Shown piece after piece: positions 32,620 to 42,482 of a stretch of DNA of 64,000 nucleotides. The notes under the pieces were generated by a model that was not told the origin of the DNA, did not search any database, and saw only the letters and a program-made list of their open reading frames with translations. The stretch spans positions 1-64,000 of the forward strand of contig JAGWSF010000098.1 of assembly GCA_028876385.1 (NCBI GenBank). The letters run 5' to 3'. The translations under genes were made by a program, and so were the position numbers. Position 1 is the first letter of the stretch; every line of letters begins with the position of its first letter. The DNA comes from Acidobacteriota bacterium (GTDB taxonomy: Bacteria > Actinomycetota > Acidimicrobiia > Acidimicrobiales > Palsa-688).

Positions 32620-35160
32620 ATGAGAGCGCTACGCAGCTTCACGGTCAGGGCCCGCCTCCCCGAGCCCCTGGTGCCGCTTCAGGACCTGGCCTTCAACCTG
32701 CGCTGGTCCTGGGACACCCGGACGCGCGATCTCTTCCGATGGGTCGACCCGCAGATATGGGAGAGCACCTTCCACGACCCGGTGCGCCTGCTCGGTCTCG
32801 TCGACCGTCAGCGCCTCGACCAACTGGCCGCCGACCCAGGATTCATGGGTTTCCTCACCGAGATGCACGATGAGTTGCGGCGCTACACCGGGCGCCCCCG
32901 ATGGTTCCAGACCAGCGGCGACAGCTCGCTGCGGGCGGTCGCCTACTTCTCCCCCGAGTTCGGGATCGCCGAAGCCCTACCCCAGTACTCCGGAGGTCTA
33001 GGGGTCCTGGCCGGGGACCACCTCAAGGCGTCGAGCAGCCTGGGCGTGCCTCTGATCGGTGTGGGCCTCATGTACCGAATGGGGTACTTCCGCCAGCACC
33101 TCGACTCGGAGGGATGGCAGGAGGAGCGCTACCCGGTCCTCGATCCCCACTCGATGGCGTTGGAACTGGTGAGCGACGTGCGGGTCGCCGTTGACCTGGC
33201 CGGGGCCCGCCTGGAAGCGCAGGTGTGGCTGGCTCAGGTCGGGCGGGTGAAGCTGTACCTGCTCGACGCCGACGTCGAGCCCAACGCCCCGGAGGAGCGG
33301 GCCGTGACCGACCGCCTCTACGGGGGCGGTCCGGAGCACCGCCTGCGCCAGGAGATTCTGCTCGGCATCGGCGGGGTACGGGCCCTCGACGCCGTGGGTG
33401 CCGCCACCCAGGTGTTCCACACCAACGAGGGCCACGCCGGCTTCCTCGGCCTCGAGCGCATCCGCCGCCTGATCGTCGGGGAGGGCCTCAGCTGGGACGA
33501 GGCGGTGGAGGCCACCCGGTCCGGCACCGTGTTCACCACCCACACTCCGGTACCGGCGGGGATCGACCGCTTCCCCCGCGACATGATGGAGCGCTACTTC
33601 TCCGACTGGGCCATGGAATGTGGCATTTCCATCGACACGCTCATGGCTCTCGGCCACTTCCCGGGAGAGTCCCCCTCCGACCCGTTCAACATGGCGGTGA
33701 TGGGCCTGCGCCTGGCCGGCCGGTCCAACGGAGTGGCCGCCCTGCACGGGCGCACCAGCCGGGAGATGTTCCAGGGACTGTGGCCCCGTGTTCCGGTCGA
33801 GGAGGTGCCCATCCAGTCGGTCACCAACGGCGTCCACGGGCGAACCTGGGTGTCCTCGCAGATGGACGACCTTCTCTCCAAGTACGTGTCGCCCGCCTGG
33901 GACGACGCCGGGCCGGAGGAGTGGGCCGGGATCTGCGCCGCCCGCGACGACGAGTTGTGGCGGGTGCGCGAGCAGGGCCGCGCCGCTTTGGTCGACTTCG
34001 TGCGGGAGCGCCTGCGCAGCGGCTTGACCGAGCGGGGCGTCTCCAGCACCGACGCCACCTGGGTCGACGAGGTCCTGGACCCCCGGTACCTGATCGTGGG
34101 CTTCTCGAGGCGCTTCGCCACCTACAAGCGGGCCACCCTCCTCTTCTCTCAGGCCGACCGCCTGCGCGCCCTGCTCCTCGACCCCCAGAACCCCATTCAG
34201 TTGGTCTTCGCCGGCAAGGCCCACCCGGCCGACGAGCTGGGCAAGGAGATGATCGCCCAGATCGTCCGCTTCTCGAGGGACCCGGCGCTGCGCCACCGCA
34301 TCACCTTCATCGAGAACTACGACATCTCGGTGGCCCGCATGATGTACCAGGGGTGCGACGTCTGGCTGAACACCCCCCGCCGCCCGATGGAGGCCAGCGG
34401 CACCAGCGGCGAGAAGGCCGCCCTCAACGGCGCTCTTAACCTGTCGATACTCGACGGCTGGTGGGACGAGATGTTCGACGGGACCAACGGGTGGGCCATC
34501 TCCTCGGCCGAGCGCGTCACCGACCTGACCCACCGCGACGAGGTGGAGGCCAACAGCCTCTTCGAGATCCTCGAGCGGCAGATCGTCCCCTTGTACTACG
34601 AACGGCGGGGAGGGCGCTACCCCCGCGATTGGGTGGCCCGGGTCAAGTCCTCGGTGGCCTCGCTCGGTCCCAAGGTGATGGCCTCCCGGATGGTCAAGGA
34701 TTACGTGCACGATCTCTATGAGCCCACCGCCTTCCAGACCGACGCCCTGTCCGCCGACGGCTACCGCCGGGCCCGCCAGCTGGCCGCCTGGAAGCAACGG
34801 GTGAGCGGGGCGTGGCCCGACGTCAAGGTCCTCGACGTGGAGCAGGACGACGGCGGCGGCCTCATGGACCTCGGGGGACGGCGCTCGGTGGCGGTGTCGG
34901 TCGATCTCGGCTCCCTCAGCCCCGACGACGTGGCCGTGGAGCTCCTCCACGGCCCGGTGGTGAGCAACGAGGAGATGTCCTCCACCGAGGTGGTCCGTCT
35001 GGCCCTGAGCCCCGAGGCCAACCCCGAGTCGGGCCCGTTCCGCTACGTGGGGTCCTTTCCCTGCGACCGCTCCGGTCGGCACGGCTACACGGTCCGCATC
35101 GTGCCCTCCCATCCCGATCTGGTCGAAGCGGTCGAGATGGGCTGCATCGCCTGGGCCTGA
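32620..35160 (+). CDS. glgP: alpha-glucan (glycogen/maltodextrin) phosphorylase
   Basis: PLP-dependent GT35 phosphorylase of 846 aa that releases glucose-1-phosphate from alpha-1,4-glucan ends. The N-terminal DUF3417 segment (LAFNLRWSWDTRTRDLFRWVDP) marks the actinobacterial GlgP type. Catalytic parts include YFSPEFGIAEALPQYSGGLGVLAGDHLKASS, FHTNEGHAGFLGLERI and the PLP lysine in EASGTSGEKAALNGALNLS. It is transcribed away from the GlgE operon across a 68-bp promoter region, pairing breakdown with synthesis. Confidence 0.95.
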   Translation: MRALRSFTVRARLPEPLVPLQDLAFNLRWSWDTRTRDLFRWVDPQIWESTFHDPVRLLGLVDRQRLDQLAADPGFMGFLTEMHDELRRYTGRPRWFQTSGDSSLRAVAYFSPEFGIAEALPQYSGGLGVLAGDHLKASSSLGVPLIGVGLMYRMGYFRQHLDSEGWQEERYPVLDPHSMALELVSDVRVAVDLAGARLEAQVWLAQVGRVKLYLLDADVEPNAPEERAVTDRLYGGGPEHRLRQEILLGIGGVRALDAVGAATQVFHTNEGHAGFLGLERIRRLIVGEGLSWDEAVEATRSGTVFTTHTPVPAGIDRFPRDMMERYFSDWAMECGISIDTLMALGHFPGESPSDPFNMAVMGLRLAGRSNGVAALHGRTSREMFQGLWPRVPVEEVPIQSVTNGVHGRTWVSSQMDDLLSKYVSPAWDDAGPEEWAGICAARDDELWRVREQGRAALVDFVRERLRSGLTERGVSSTDATWVDEVLDPRYLIVGFSRRFATYKRATLLFSQADRLRALLLDPQNPIQLVFAGKAHPADELGKEMIAQIVRFSRDPALRHRITFIENYDISVARMMYQGCDVWLNTPRRPMEASGTSGEKAALNGALNLSILDGWWDEMFDGTNGWAISSAERVTDLTHRDEVEANSLFEILERQIVPLYYERRGGRYPRDWVARVKSSVASLGPKVMASRMVKDYVHDLYEPTAFQTDALSADGYRRARQLAAWKQRVSGAWPDVKVLDVEQDDGGGLMDLGGRRSVAVSVDLGSLSPDDVAVELLHGPVVSNEEMSSTEVVRLALSPEANPESGPFRYVGSFPCDRSGRHGYTVRIVPSHPDLVEAVEMGCIAWA

Positions 35161-37382: not shown

Positions 37383-37458
37383 CCCGAGCCGGCCCGCTCA
37401 ACCCGAGCCGGCCCGCTCAACCCGAGCCGGCCCGCTCAACCCGAGCCGGCCCGCTCAA
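37383..37458. repeat. 19-bp tandem repeat, 4 copies
   Basis: The unit cccgagccggcccgctcaa occurs at 37383, 37402, 37421 and 37440. The last copy contains the stop codon of the minus-strand hydrolase gene (37455-37457). Confidence 0.95.
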
Positions 37459-38027
37459 CCTGTCAGGCGGTCCAGCCAGTCGAGGGTCAGCTCGCCTATC
37501 CGGTCGTCCACACCGCGTAGGGCATGGTCCTTGCCGTCGATCCAGTGGTGGGTGACGGGTCCTCTGATGGCGGCGGTGGCCTGCTCCAGCTCGTCGGGCC
37601 GGCCGAAGGCGTCGCGGGTGCCCGATATGAACAGGCAGGGGACCCCGATGGCCGGGAAATGCCCGTCGCGCCGCTTGTCGGGCCGCCCCGGTGGGTGCAG
37701 CGGGTAGCTGATGAGCACCAGCCCGGCGGCGGCCAGTCCGTCGGCCACGGCCATGGAGCACATCCGCCCACCCATCGACCGCCCACCGAGGACCAGCCGG
37801 GCCGGGGCCGTCAGACGCCCGCTCAGGGCGGCGGCTTCCGCCCGGACGGCCTCGACCAGGACCGGGGCCCGGTCGGGCGCCCGGCGGCCGGCCCGCCGGT
37901 AGGGGAAGTCCATGCGCTCCACGGTCCAGCCCGCCGCGGCGGCTACGCCGTCGAGAGCGACCAGCGTGGCCTGATCCCGGTCCGCTCCTGCGCCCGGTGC
38001 CAGCAGGAGGCCCTGGGAGGGCTTCAA
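37455..38027 (-). CDS. alpha/beta hydrolase, KANL3/Tex30-like
   Basis: Compact 190-aa alpha/beta hydrolase. The triad can be read as Ser in LGGRSMGGRMCSM, Asp in FISGTRDAFGRPDEL and His in DGKDHALRG; GLLLAPGAGADRDQ near the N-terminus forms the oxyanion region. The family is widespread and its substrate is unknown. The start is a TTG at 38027 overlapping the previous stop (TTGA), so it is probably translated by coupling to the zinc-ribbon gene. The stop lies in a 19-bp tandem repeat. Confidence 0.78.
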   Translation of the reverse strand: MKPSQGLLLAPGAGADRDQATLVALDGVAAAAGWTVERMDFPYRRAGRRAPDRAPVLVEAVRAEAAALSGRLTAPARLVLGGRSMGGRMCSMAVADGLAAAGLVLISYPLHPPGRPDKRRDGHFPAIGVPCLFISGTRDAFGRPDELEQATAAIRGPVTHHWIDGKDHALRGVDDRIGELTLDWLDRLTG

Positions 38028-39310
38028 ACGACGGCGCGCAGGAGGTCGTGGAGATGGTTGGCGTGCTCGAAGACCTCGTTGGGGTCGTGGCCGCCTTCGA
38101 TGGCCGCAGCCAGCGAACGGGCCCGGCTGCGGATGCGGAACCAGTCGACCTCGTCGAGCCCGAGCAGCGGAGGGCCCTCGGTCTCTTCGATCCAGCGCCG
38201 CGCCGCGTCGCGTCGCATGTCGTCGGTCGGATCCGCCGACAGCCGGCCACAGGCCGCGAACAGTTCGGCCACCGCCCGGTAGCGGTCCTCGTCGCTCTGG
38301 TCGTCGACGCCGTCGGCGTCACCACCGATCAGATCGAACAGCGCCTCGACCTCGTCCTCACGGCTCGAAGGAACGAGGATCTCGTCACCCTCCCACTCGT
38401 GGGCGATCCCCTTCTGGTCGAGCATGATCGAAAGCTCGGCCCTCTGGTCGGGCCGCCACTCGGCCAGCTCGTAAACCGTCCGCTCGCCCGGTCGGGCGGC
38501 CGGAGCCGGCGATTCCCCGCCGGGGCCTACGCCGAGGGGGGCCAGGAGCTTCTCGAGCACTCCTGCTTCCTTGCGGATGTCCTCCTCGAGCGCCTCGTCG
38601 GCACCGAGGGCGGTGAGCAGACGGCGGGTCACCCGTCCGACGGCCGACCACGCCTCCTCGTCGAACGGGCCGTAGCTGTCGGCCAGGAACACCGCGGTGC
38701 TGGCTTCGGCCACGTCGGCGTCGGCCTGCATGTCCGTGGGGTCGACCCTCAAGCGGTGGACGGCGTCGGCAAGGAGGCGAACGGTGGCGGACATGTCGTC
38801 GTCCTCGTCGTCCCAGGTGTCCGACTCGTCGTCGGCATCGACGCGCCCTTCGGCCATCTCGTCCCCGGCGAGCGGGCCGGAAACGGCGAGGTCGTCCCCG
38901 ACCGGGGTAGCCGCGTCACGTCGACCGGCCGCAGTCCACAGATCGGCGGCGTCGAGGGGCTCCCCCGGCTCGTCGCCTACCTCCCCGGTGTCGGCGACCG
39001 CCGCCGAGCCGACGTCGATGGTCTCGCTCAGCATGGCCACCAGATCATCGACGCGTTCCTCATCGGCGGCGTCGATGATCAGCTCCTCTTCCTCGAAGCG
39101 GTGCTCGATCCCGAGGTCGTTCAGACGGACGATCAGCTGGCCCCGGTCACGGTCGGCCCACCCGTCGATCCGGTAGCCGACCTCATCCTCCTCGACGCCC
39201 GGCTCGAGCTCGGGTACGGCCGAGGGCACCAACTTCTGACGGCACGAATGGCACCGACCTCGACTGTGCACCTCGTACCCGCATGTGGCGCAGTACCAGA
39301 CCCGCGCCAC
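38024..39310 (-). CDS. unrecognised zinc-ribbon protein with internally duplicated two-module architecture
   Basis: I do not recognise this 428-aa acidic protein. Residues 6-23 form a Cys-x2-Cys-x9-Cys-x2-Cys zinc ribbon (C7, C10, C20, C23). Two units follow, each made of a short alpha-beta module (46-94 and 280-328, both with a pattern like GIEHRFEEEELIID / GIAHEWEGDEILVP, reminiscent of DUF2007 signal-transducing modules) and a helical module (about 176-259 and 343-427, both with RLRVDPTD / RLSADPTD). An acidic linker (100-172) joins them. GTG 39310 follows the FAD-enzyme stop by 3 bp, and the hydrolase start overlaps its stop, so the three are co-transcribed. Role unknown; possibly regulatory. 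Confidence 0.8.
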   Translation of the reverse strand: MARVWYCATCGYEVHSRGRCHSCRQKLVPSAVPELEPGVEEDEVGYRIDGWADRDRGQLIVRLNDLGIEHRFEEEELIIDAADEERVDDLVAMLSETIDVGSAAVADTGEVGDEPGEPLDAADLWTAAGRRDAATPVGDDLAVSGPLAGDEMAEGRVDADDESDTWDDEDDDMSATVRLLADAVHRLRVDPTDMQADADVAEASTAVFLADSYGPFDEEAWSAVGRVTRRLLTALGADEALEEDIRKEAGVLEKLLAPLGVGPGGESPAPAARPGERTVYELAEWRPDQRAELSIMLDQKGIAHEWEGDEILVPSSREDEVEALFDLIGGDADGVDDQSDEDRYRAVAELFAACGRLSADPTDDMRRDAARRWIEETEGPPLLGLDEVDWFRIRSRARSLAAAIEGGHDPNEVFEHANHLHDLLRAVV

Positions 39311-39313
39311 GAT

Positions 39314-40840
39314 TCAGGTCCGCTTCTTCGTGGGCAGGATCGGGGCATCGCGCCCCGTGCCGTTGGCCGACGAGCCGGACGTCACGGCCGCCGCTCCCGC
39401 AGCCGGCGCCTGATTGATCTCGTGGTACTCGTCCTCGACGTTCACCGACCACACGTCGTGGGAGGCACCGAACAGGTTCTCGACGGTGAGCATGGCGGTG
39501 TACATCGAATGGTCCTGGTTGTTGTAGCGGTGCATGCCGTTACGTCCGACAGGGAACACGTTGGGCGCATGGGAGCTTAGCCAGGCCCGGATGCGGTCCA
39601 CGTTGGCGGCGTAGTCCTGGTCGTAGTAAGGGTAGGCCTTGGGCATGCGGACCACGTAGCCGGCCTCGACCTGGGACGGGTCGAGAAGGCCGAGTTGGCC
39701 GAGTTCGGCGGCGCCCTGGCGGACGAGCACCTCGTCGGGGGAGCTCCACGATTCGTCTCCCTCCTCGACGGTGTACTCGAGGCCGAGGACGTTGCGGCCC
39801 TCCTTGACGAGGAACGGCGACCAGGAGCCGAAGTTCTGGATGCGCATGGTCTTCACCGTGGGATCGTGGATGTAGATCCAGTTGTCATCCCAGGGAACGG
39901 CGGACTCGGGCACCACCAGGGCCACCGTGAGGAAGTCCCTGTAGTACAGGGCGTCGGCCGCCCGCCGCACGTCGTCGGGCACGGGCGGATCCATGACCTG
40001 AACCAACTGGTTGATGGGCATGGACGAGATGACCGCCGACGCCGGGTACTCGGTCGTCGCCCCGTCGTGCTCACCGACGACGGCGACCGCCCGCCCGTCG
40101 GAGTGGCGGATCCGGACGACCCTGGTGTTCATGAGGACCTTGGTTCCCTGCTCCTCGACGAGGTCCCGGCAACGCTCCCACATCATCCCGGGACCGAGGC
40201 GGGGATACTGGAACTCCTCGATGAGCGAGGTGATCTGCTTCTGGTTGCGCTTCGGCGTGAGGGCGTTGATCACCGCCGAGGCCAGCGAGAGGTTCTTGAC
40301 CCGCTGTGCGGCCCAGTCGGCGGGCATCTCCGCCGGCGGATGGCCCCACACCTTCTCGGTGTAGGTCTTGAAGAAGTGGTGGTAGAGCCGGGACCCGAAG
40401 CGGGCCACCAGCCACCCCTCGTACATGTCCTGCCTGGCCGGGGGACGCACCCGGGCCCAGGCGTAGGACAGAACGCAGCGGACCGCTTCGACCACGCCGA
40501 GGTTCCCGAGGGCGTTGGACGCCTTCAGCGGGTAGTCGTAGAACTTGCCCCGGTAGTAGATGCGGCTCTTGCGGGGGCGCAGCATGAAGTCCTCGTCGGG
40601 GAGCACCTCGTGCCAGAAGGCCTCGACCGCGGCCACTTTGGTGAAGAAGCGGTGGCCCCCGATGTCGAAACGCCAACCGTCGCGTTCCACGGTGCGGCTG
40701 ATACCGCCCACGACGTCGTCGGCTTCGAGAACGGTGGACCGGCGTCCCGCCTTGCCCAACTCGTAGGCCGCGGTCAGGCCCGCCGGACCTGCGCCGATGA
40801 TTACGACATCGCTGGCCAGATCGCCAGGTTGATCAGTCAC
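39314..40840 (-). CDS. FAD-dependent amine-oxidase-like oxidoreductase (UDP-galactopyranose mutase / protoporphyrinogen oxidase superfamily)
   Basis: Flavoprotein of 508 aa. The dinucleotide fold VVIIGAGPAGLTAAYELGKAGRRSTVLEADDVVGGISRT is at the N-terminus, with DIGGHRFFTK following, a typical GG doublet-plus-HRF motif. The C-terminal FAD segment is FPVGRNGMHRYNNQDHSMYTAMLTVENLFG. In between, WGHPPAEMPADWAAQRVKNLSL resembles the amine oxidoreductases that accompany polysaccharide genes. It lies 25 bp after the membrane glycosyltransferase gene, so a role in modifying a sugar or lipid-linked sugar is plausible but unproved. GTG 40840 has AAGGGAG upstream. Confidence 0.8.
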   Translation of the reverse strand: MTDQPGDLASDVVIIGAGPAGLTAAYELGKAGRRSTVLEADDVVGGISRTVERDGWRFDIGGHRFFTKVAAVEAFWHEVLPDEDFMLRPRKSRIYYRGKFYDYPLKASNALGNLGVVEAVRCVLSYAWARVRPPARQDMYEGWLVARFGSRLYHHFFKTYTEKVWGHPPAEMPADWAAQRVKNLSLASAVINALTPKRNQKQITSLIEEFQYPRLGPGMMWERCRDLVEEQGTKVLMNTRVVRIRHSDGRAVAVVGEHDGATTEYPASAVISSMPINQLVQVMDPPVPDDVRRAADALYYRDFLTVALVVPESAVPWDDNWIYIHDPTVKTMRIQNFGSWSPFLVKEGRNVLGLEYTVEEGDESWSSPDEVLVRQGAAELGQLGLLDPSQVEAGYVVRMPKAYPYYDQDYAANVDRIRAWLSSHAPNVFPVGRNGMHRYNNQDHSMYTAMLTVENLFGASHDVWSVNVEDEYHEINQAPAAGAAAVTSGSSANGTGRDAPILPTKKRT

Positions 40841-40865: not shown

Positions 40866-42482
40866 TCACCCGGCGTAACGGGTCAGGTTCTCGAACTCGT
40901 AGTACTGCCAGCCGTTGGCGCCGATCAGAGTCACGCCGGACTGGCGCAGCAGATCCAGCCAGCTCTTGATGTAGCCGCAGTTCCCCCCGAGGGAGGGATA
41001 GCCGTCGCGCCAGACCAGCCATACGGTGTGGTTGGGACCTACCCGCTGCAGGGCGTTCTCGGTGAACTGGGAGACGTTGGTGGAGGCGATGGTCGCCTTG
41101 TAGTCGACCCAGTTCACCCGGGCTGGGCCGATGGCACGCGGGAAGGTGATCTGCTGGACGCCGGGCACCCGGAGGAGCCGGTTGACCGCCGGCCCCAGCT
41201 GGTCGGGGCAGTAGATCACCAGATCGCCGGGGGAGGCCTGGGCGTTGAGCACCGCCGCGACCTGCACCGCCTGGGTGCGCTGCTGGCTGTTCTCGCTCTG
41301 TCCGGTGAGGAGACCGGCCACGACCAGGACGCTCAGGCAACCGGCCCGGAACCGTCGACCCGGCACCACGGCCAGACCGGACGCCATCACCAGCAGGAAC
41401 AGCGGTAGGACCACGGCGGTGTAGCGGGCCACGAACGCGGCGTTGGCGATGGCCCCCAGCACCACCGCCGTGACCAGCGTGGCCACGGCCACGCCGACCA
41501 TGGGGCCCATCCCCGGTCGGGGGGACAGCTCTATGAGCACGGCGGGGCCGGCCTCGACCTGGCGGGACCCTCCCCGGCCGTCGTCGATGGTGACCATGGC
41601 CCCGGGCGCTGCGGTGCGCCCGAAGGTGCCCAGCACGAACAGCAGGAAGGTGGCGAACATGAGCAGGCCGCCCCACGGCCCGCCCCCCGACCAGTCCCCG
41701 AAGACGGTGAGCAGGTCACCGGGGCTGGCCGCGCTCGTCCAGGGCGTCCCGGTGTGAAGGGTCTGGAAGACGAACACCGGCGCCCAGGGCAGCCACAGGA
41801 GACCCCCCACGATCAGGGCCCGCAGGGCCGCCCCGCCGTCGCCCCGGGCCAGGACCCGCCACAGGAGCCACAGACCGGTGACGAGGACCAGATAGATGGC
41901 CCAGTAGTGGGTGTAGAGGAGGGCCGCGGTGACGGCGCCGAGGGCCACCCGTCGCCCCCGGGTGGGATTCTCCATGACCGCGCTGAGAGCGAGGAAGCCC
42001 AGCACCGATAGCAGCACCATCAGGGAGTACATCCGGGTCGTGGTGGCGTAGTTGATGGCGAAGGGTGACGAGAGGGCCAGGAAGAAAGCCACCCAGGCCA
42101 CCCGACGCCCACCGATGCGTCGTCCGGCCAACCAGAAGGCCGGCAGCGTCACCACCGACGTCAGACCCGACAGGGCCCGCACCGCGCCGTCCCCCTGCCC
42201 GAACAACCTCATCCAGAAGTGCAGGAGGACGTAGTACAGGGGGGGAGCCCCGTCGTGGCTGAGCGCACCCGGGATCTTCGTCAGGGGCAGCCGGGCGATG
42301 TCGACGCTGATGGTCTCGTCCAGCCATAGGGCGCTGGGCGTCCAGAAGCGGAGGTAGACCCCGACCACCACCGCGACGGCACCCGCCGCCAGCAGGGCGG
42401 GATGGGGTCGACGTCGCTCGCCGAAGAGGGTCACCAGCAGCCCTGATTCGACTGGCCTAGGACTGCTTACCGTGGTTTGCAC
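40866..42482 (-). CDS. integral membrane glycosyltransferase, GT-C fold (GT39/83-like)
   Basis: 538-aa multi-pass membrane protein. After the first helix comes [17 protein letters not shown], the loop with the acidic catalytic site of polyprenol-phosphate-sugar-using GT-C enzymes, then [21 protein letters not shown] and about ten further hydrophobic segments. The C-terminal part (from about 410) is soluble and presumably extracytoplasmic. It would transfer a sugar from a lipid carrier to an exported acceptor; neither is identifiable. GTG 42482 lies 8 nt after TACCAT (42496-42491). First gene of a unit with the FAD enzyme, zinc-ribbon protein and hydrolase. Confidence 0.82.

Follow-up and report, generated by a model that had tools for sequence, protein, structure and literature searches.

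What kind of protein does the gene at 38024..39310 on the minus strand encode, and with which partners might it act? The window, i.e., the whole 64,000-nucleotide stretch of DNA analyzed here, held this open reading frame at the position where it had been placed: on the minus strand, the frame starts with GTG at 39310, its stop codon ends at 38024, and the product comprises 428 amino acids. A same-genus orthologue was 92% identical to it. Between the window and locus L031, 16, 18, and 46 differences fell on codon positions 1, 2, and 3 of 428 codons, and the changed codons included 38 synonymous and 35 non-synonymous ones; compared with locus L032, the differences were 69, 55, and 154 in 412 codons. 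This pattern indicated that the target is a real and fast-evolving coding gene. The window also contained long open frames that run antisense to real genes (32998-35112 (-) and 37997-39580 (+)) and are probably not genes; long antisense open frames are expected in high-GC DNA.

The original prediction knew no described family for this protein, and none was found above threshold in Pfam, NCBIfam, PADLOC, or PHROG. When the target and its relatives were scanned against Pfam and NCBIfam, the ribbon matched below threshold, and the remaining matches were isolated and weak. The covered parts of the literature on Acidimicrobiales (their J-domain proteins and zinc ribbons included), DUF2007, and rhomboid cytoplasmic domains (mainly non-subscription papers) held no description of the family, and neither did the covered parts of a paper on signature proteins of Acidimicrobiia (PMC5962788).

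The N-terminus forms a Cys4 zinc ribbon (residues 5-30; 39221..39298 (-)), as had been proposed: C7, C10, C20, and C23 were invariant in 25 of 25 aligned rows. Its pattern in the target is C-x2-C-G-Y-E-V-x2-R-G-R-C-H-x-C, and the CGYE and GRCH around the cysteines were invariant in f1, the family of the window. The ribbon probably binds zinc. Its match to the RCKP-type rubredoxin-like domain (NF045720; residues 4-24) scored 13 bits with an E-value of 0.057, where >45 bits are required. The ribbon is followed by the alpha/beta module AB1 (residues 43-100; 39011..39184 (-)), which has the order beta-alpha-beta-beta-alpha in the AlphaFold2 model and was matched by the AB profile at E 2e-15. A net-acidic linker of low model confidence (residues 101-167; 38810..39010 (-)) leads to the helical module H1 (residues 168-255; 38546..38809 (-)), which has four helices in the AlphaFold2 model and was matched by the H profile. 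The second unit consists of AB2 (residues 277-333; 38312..38482 (-)) and the four-helix module H2 (residues 337-427; 38030..38302 (-)), both delimited by AlphaFold2 and by homology to AB1 and H1, respectively. The sequence motifs quoted for the modules were present in both copies. The two copies had also been described as separated by an acidic linker, but the segment between them (residues 256-276; 38483..38545 (-)) is Pro/Ala/Gly-rich by composition, with 67% P/A/G and 10% D/E. The acidic stretches sit instead inside each unit: the linker of unit 1 (residues 101-167) contains 28% D/E and 4% K/R, compared with 24 and 10% in the whole protein, and runs into an acidic DEDDD, and residues 328-340 of unit 2 contain 38% D/E.

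That the two-module unit was duplicated in tandem was borne out by sequence, profile, and predicted element order alike. Self-alignment, which had been suggested as a check, gave a score of 76 for the AB modules (shuffled mean 25.7) and 56 for the helical modules (shuffled mean 27.8), and none of 2000 shuffles reached either score. In profile-profile comparison, AB1 and AB2 matched with a probability of 97.7 (E 1.8e-12) and H1 and H2 with a probability of 94.0 (E 1.4e-7); 200 column shuffles never scored as high in either case. The control pair AB1 and H2 reached a probability of 0.8, which was equaled in 16 of 100 shuffles and represents background. A profile built exclusively from C-terminal helical modules matched H1 at E 7.4e-11. 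Both module pairs are homologous between the copies.

The structure prediction, also proposed as a check, yielded the identical element order in the two copies. AlphaFold2, run on the 25-row alignment, gave a mean pLDDT of 81.7 and values of ≥90 for 269 of 428 residues. Unit 1 comprised strand 43-47, helix 53-65, strands 70-73 and 76-80, and helix 81-106, followed by four helices within 168-255; unit 2 comprised strand 277-281, helix 287-299, strands 305-307 and 310-314, and helix 315-333, followed by four helices within 337-427. With a pTM of 0.48, the model is unreliable as to how the domains are placed relative to one another. Block means of pLDDT in AB1 were 80-96, and residues 101-113 and 115-166 fell below 50. 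Residues 1-100 alone, i.e., the ribbon and AB1, were predicted to fold as well (pLDDT 89.0).

Structure searches covered the full model and residues 1-100. Foldseek returned no match below E 0.001 for either query. With VIA-align, AB1 matched several small bab-ba domains at Z 4.5-5.2 and rmsd 1.8-2.4 over 53-60 residues. A similar small bab-ba fold occurs in a flagellar MS-ring chain, PrgK, aspartokinase, UreE, and a TFIIH chain, with Z below the level of kinship, and the fold is generic. The domain matched in the MS-ring chain and PrgK is presumably the one named the ring-building motif, and that of aspartokinase we take to be ACT. For the full model, the VIA list concerned mainly residues 334-428 and contained, at Z 9-10, BRIL fusions, cytochrome c', and similar four-helix bundles; such matches indicate a generic four-helix bundle and no more. 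Among solved structures searched by sequence, the best match of the AB profile had E 0.27, and nothing below E 0.6 was found with the DUF2007 profile. The best match of the unit profile, APPL1 (2elb; E 6.6e-4), covered profile positions 80-149 in the helical part and was set aside as a presumed match of helical composition.

The AB module resembled DUF2007 in length and element order (PF09413, putative signal transducing protein), whose order we take to be beta-alpha-beta-beta-alpha. By AlphaFold2 and hhalign, the AB module shares this element order, and its helix 1 ends with the L...GI seen in the DUF2007 alignment. The hhalign comparison was in register with E 6.8e-4 and a probability of only 26.8, and its score of 20.2 exceeded the best of 200 column shuffles (17.4); the DUF2007 alignment comprised 14 of 17 loci (without L106, L108, and L109), of which five scored below Pfam's cut-off. 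PF09413 had no match in the target at E 10 and none among 27 units at E 1, and DUF2007 proteins above the cut-off were found elsewhere in 9 of 59 genomes of the order. Since a shared fold class alone is insufficient, kinship with DUF2007 is not proven. NRho (PF16733), the N-terminal domain of rhomboid proteases, matched 1 of the 27 units weakly (E 0.016), far under a curated match, and the target lacks a rhomboid domain. An NRho-like arrangement, with the AB module preceding a membrane protease, was present in one relative (L158:4242-5300 (-)), in which the AB module is fused to DUF2510-Rce1-like protease domains (E 1.6e-18). In another (L157:4624-5514 (-)), it is fused to an RDD membrane domain (E 7.7e-17). 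Both belong to other orders of the class, and these fusions indicated that AB is a mobile N-terminal module.

The family was largely confined to one order. A whole-protein search at E 0.01 matched 102 of 198 genomes of the order, and a unit-profile search at E 0.001 matched 218 of 397, with one to three matches per genome among the matches listed, frequently both AB modules of a single frame. Some genomes (G101 and G775) had a second location. In the phylum sample, 17 of 396 genomes matched, namely 17 of 30 from the same order and 0 of 366 others, as counted by hand from the listing. The AB module alone matched 63 of 296 genomes of the class, 52 within the order and 11 in other orders. Named relatives (24 loci) belonged to Acidimicrobiaceae/Acidimicrobiales or to unplaced Actinomycetes/Actinobacteria, including Acidiferrimicrobium sp. 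IK, and from their lineages the order is most likely Acidimicrobiales.

To compare layouts, 91 loci were reduced to 58 distinct proteins differing in their last 120 residues. Zn-AB-H-AB-H was the most frequent layout (26), followed by Zn-AB-H and Zn-AB-AB-H (9 each), AB-AB-H (8), AB-H (5), and AB-H-AB (1); among the Zn-AB-H proteins, that of L050 is cut by the contig end. The counts did not support the duplicated layout as the definition of the family, as only 26 of the 58 proteins have it. It was seen only in f1 and in loci of close named relatives, whose family is mostly unstated. Elsewhere in the order, the proteins were alpha/beta-helical or alpha/beta-alpha/beta-helical, mostly with a ribbon, and AB-H with a ribbon-like Cys4 also occurred in other orders of the class (L154, L155, and L156). 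The A5 alignment comprised 31 of 61 modules, picked by hand.

In the window, the target stands third in a group of four genes on the minus strand. The first is a PMT_2-type membrane glycosyltransferase (40866..42482 (-); Pfam PF13231, E 1.3e-9), followed after 25 nt by an FAD/NAD(P) oxidoreductase of the PRK07208 type (39314..40840 (-); NCBIfam NF005548, E 6.9e-229), 3 nt upstream of the target; an alpha/beta hydrolase (Abhydrolase_11; 37455..38027 (-); Pfam PF20408, E 2.3e-41) overlaps the target by 4 nt. By these gaps and this overlap, the arrangement is operon-like, in agreement with the gene group originally described. So tight a group would suit a protein that regulates envelope glycosylation or serves as its assembly factor, acting together with the PMT_2 glycosyltransferase and the FAD enzyme, and the f1-type proteins are in line with that: FAD lay upstream in 25 of 27 (L050 counted) and PMT_2 in 12 of 27, many loci ending before its place. 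The hydrolase was downstream in 18 of the 27. For three of the remaining nine, the locus ends within 1.3 kb; for the other six, at least 6.5 kb contained no hydrolase match.

Outside f1, the neighbors changed. The ~1.5-kb flanks of 31 non-f1 proteins contained no FAD or PMT_2 match; they showed a J protein downstream in 25 cases, the hydrolase in 25, an S9 peptidase upstream in 16, and a divergent glpX in 13. We also compared 20 wider loci with ~5 kb flanks, hand-picked among the target matches from 20 genomes of 19 other families (f23 twice), most of which had not been covered before; in the target frame of L125, the AB module alone was detected. A J-domain protein of ~230 aa adjoined the target in 19 of the 20 (inverted in L121, absent in L119), glpX was near it in 19, and the hydrolase was near it in 18 (absent in L121 and L122; at least 2 kb away in L114 and L124). 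None of the 20 contained S9, FAD, or PMT_2. The glycosyltransferase/FAD unit, when checked for conservation, was thus not supported as the general context of the target, whose neighbors elsewhere are glpX, the J-domain protein, and the hydrolase. Moreover, an S9 peptidase separates FAD from the target in L053, an f1-type locus with the order FAD-S9-target-hydrolase, and in G638, which suggested that the FAD adjacency is secondary. Weighed against the tight group in the window, these observations make a role in glycosylation unlikely. The ancestral place of S9 is itself unsure, because it lay upstream of 16 of 31 non-f1 proteins but in 0 of 20 wider loci.

The same loci bear on whether the target is a selfish or accessory gene (of a phage, a plasmid, or a defence system) that lies near glpX by chance. 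Its restriction to one lineage and the lack of any match in the libraries searched would fit such a gene. However, the 218 of 397 genomes of the order that carry it, the one to three matches in each among those listed, and the absence of any PADLOC, PHROG, or plasmid match for the target speak against it, and the stable synteny in the 20 wider loci already contradicts it; we regard this origin as extremely improbable.

The J-domain neighbor represents a protein family of ~230 aa whose members combine a conserved N-terminal part with a J domain at the C-terminus (e.g., L025:795-1493 (-)). The alignment comprised 22 of 23 proteins (L010, at a locus end, was omitted), and H206-P207-D208 was invariant in all 22 rows. 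Three members that were scanned fell under the Pfam DnaJ cut-off (E 2.5e-4 to 0.015) and had no curated family above cut-off. In the phylum sample, the J protein was found in 16 of 296 genomes, i.e., 15 of 22 from the same order and one from the same class (counted by hand from the listing). The usual neighbor of the target's relatives thus resembles DnaJ systems in being a J-domain protein with HPD. The target itself had no J-domain match in Pfam and is not a DnaJ co-chaperone by domain, and its Cys4 ribbon differs from the DnaJ zinc finger, whose motif is CXXCXGXG.

The J protein was rare in f1. It was matched in 3 of 32 f1 genomes, with two strong matches, both in genus g354, and one weak match to the J-domain part only; it was found in 0 of the 12 f1 genomes with ≥90% completeness and ≤5% contamination, and the genome of the window contained no J protein of this family. 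In G638 (g354), one contig carried PMT2-FAD-S9-duplicated target, followed 1.6 kb later, where the contig ends, by the beginning of a J protein; a full J protein with the hydrolase lay on another contig. G638 and L053 would be compatible with an intermediate stage, the duplication having preceded the loss of S9 and the J protein. G053 (L160) had glpX-J protein-hydrolase in the usual order without a target match, and G773 had the J protein and no target match. The f54 loci (e.g., L016, L018, L021, and L083) had no J protein within 1.5 kb downstream. In L016, its place was held by an opposite-strand ORF (L016:1989-2987 (-)) that by eye resembles a fatty-acid desaturase.

What the modules do may be read from their conservation. 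In the unit alignment of 27 rows (without L015, L019, and L023; L001 is the window itself), only W31, L43, G130, and W136 were invariant. These residues look structural, which argues against catalysis and for an adaptor. The ribbon and first copy of f1 contained many invariant polar residues (e.g., H21, H70, R71, E73, D83, D190, D193, D197, R226, and R229), and an active site is possible in the f1 form for this reason. The N-terminal copy was the more conserved one in f1, with mean identities of 63.2 vs. 56.9% for AB and 65.1 vs. 47.9% for H.

The ribbon itself invites a further explanation, a metal or redox sensor in which zinc binding and release would shift the contacts of the modules and tune the adjacent hydrolase or peptidase. 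The invariant Cys4, CGYE, and GRCH in f1 and the presence of the hydrolase near the target across the order are compatible with this, as is one in-frame fusion of S9 with AB-H in genome G013. On the other hand, the pattern C..C(8-24)C..C left the ribbon undetected in 14 of 58 distinct proteins, so that it looks dispensable, and structural ribbons are common. A sensor therefore seems rather improbable. The G013 fusion was seen at L030:1-1980 (+) and L164:2214-4655 (+). A common S9-target fusion was rejected: among four genomes with long frames that were checked, a true fusion occurred in G013 only.

The age of the duplication was approached with module trees of 99 AB and 82 H modules (L050 and L025 left out). 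The AB tree has few columns, and the clade readings rest on part of it and on the H tree without its group table. Each of the four f1-type modules (AB1, AB2, H1, and H2) formed a single clade. In the H tree, f1 H2 grouped with single-unit proteins, and a starred branch (95/81) separated f1 H1 from f1 H2. At face value, this places the divergence of the copies before the ancestor of f1. The branch of f1 H1 is long (1.54) and may mislead the tree. Either the duplication would be older than f1 and was lost elsewhere, or a recent origin would be hidden by long-branch effects.

Taken together, we propose that the target is a cytoplasmic, probably non-catalytic zinc-ribbon adaptor that was ancestrally paired with a J-domain co-chaperone and became tandem-duplicated in the lineage of the window; we consider this about evenly balanced between right and wrong. 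The cytoplasmic place, the lack of catalysis, and the binding of partners by the modules are all presumed. The basic unit would consist of one or two beta-alpha-beta-beta-alpha interaction modules, whose fold class also includes DUF2007, ACT, and ring-building motifs, together with a four-helix module; in most members, a small zinc ribbon precedes the unit. The ancestral gene probably lay beside glpX, clustered with the J-domain protein and the alpha/beta hydrolase, and in some families also with the S9 peptidase. The J-domain neighbor makes a chaperone-linked role the leading guess; one partner may have been the J protein or one of its clients, a link drawn purely from gene order, and the conservation of that order near glpX may in part reflect ancient synteny. 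The alpha/beta-helical unit would then have been duplicated in tandem by the f1 ancestor or earlier, the order of duplication and loss being a reconstruction. In f1, the J protein would have disappeared from nearly all members, and the gene would have joined the PMT_2-FAD pair. In the lineage of the window, the duplicated form must act without the J protein, and it may represent a covalent pseudo-dimer for which the J protein has become dispensable. In a bolder version, which we think quite unlikely, the glpX-linked cluster would be an undescribed lineage-specific co-chaperone system with the J domain and a client-binding zinc-ribbon protein on separate chains, replaced in the lineage of the window by a tandem-duplicated, J-independent adaptor.

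The analysis delineates a protein family without a name, present in 218 of the 397 genomes sampled from one order, and its J-domain neighbor represents a second unnamed family. It also provides a case in which a module pair was duplicated within a protein while the gene of its usual partner is absent. Should the chaperone link prove true, this would be a new co-chaperone arrangement.
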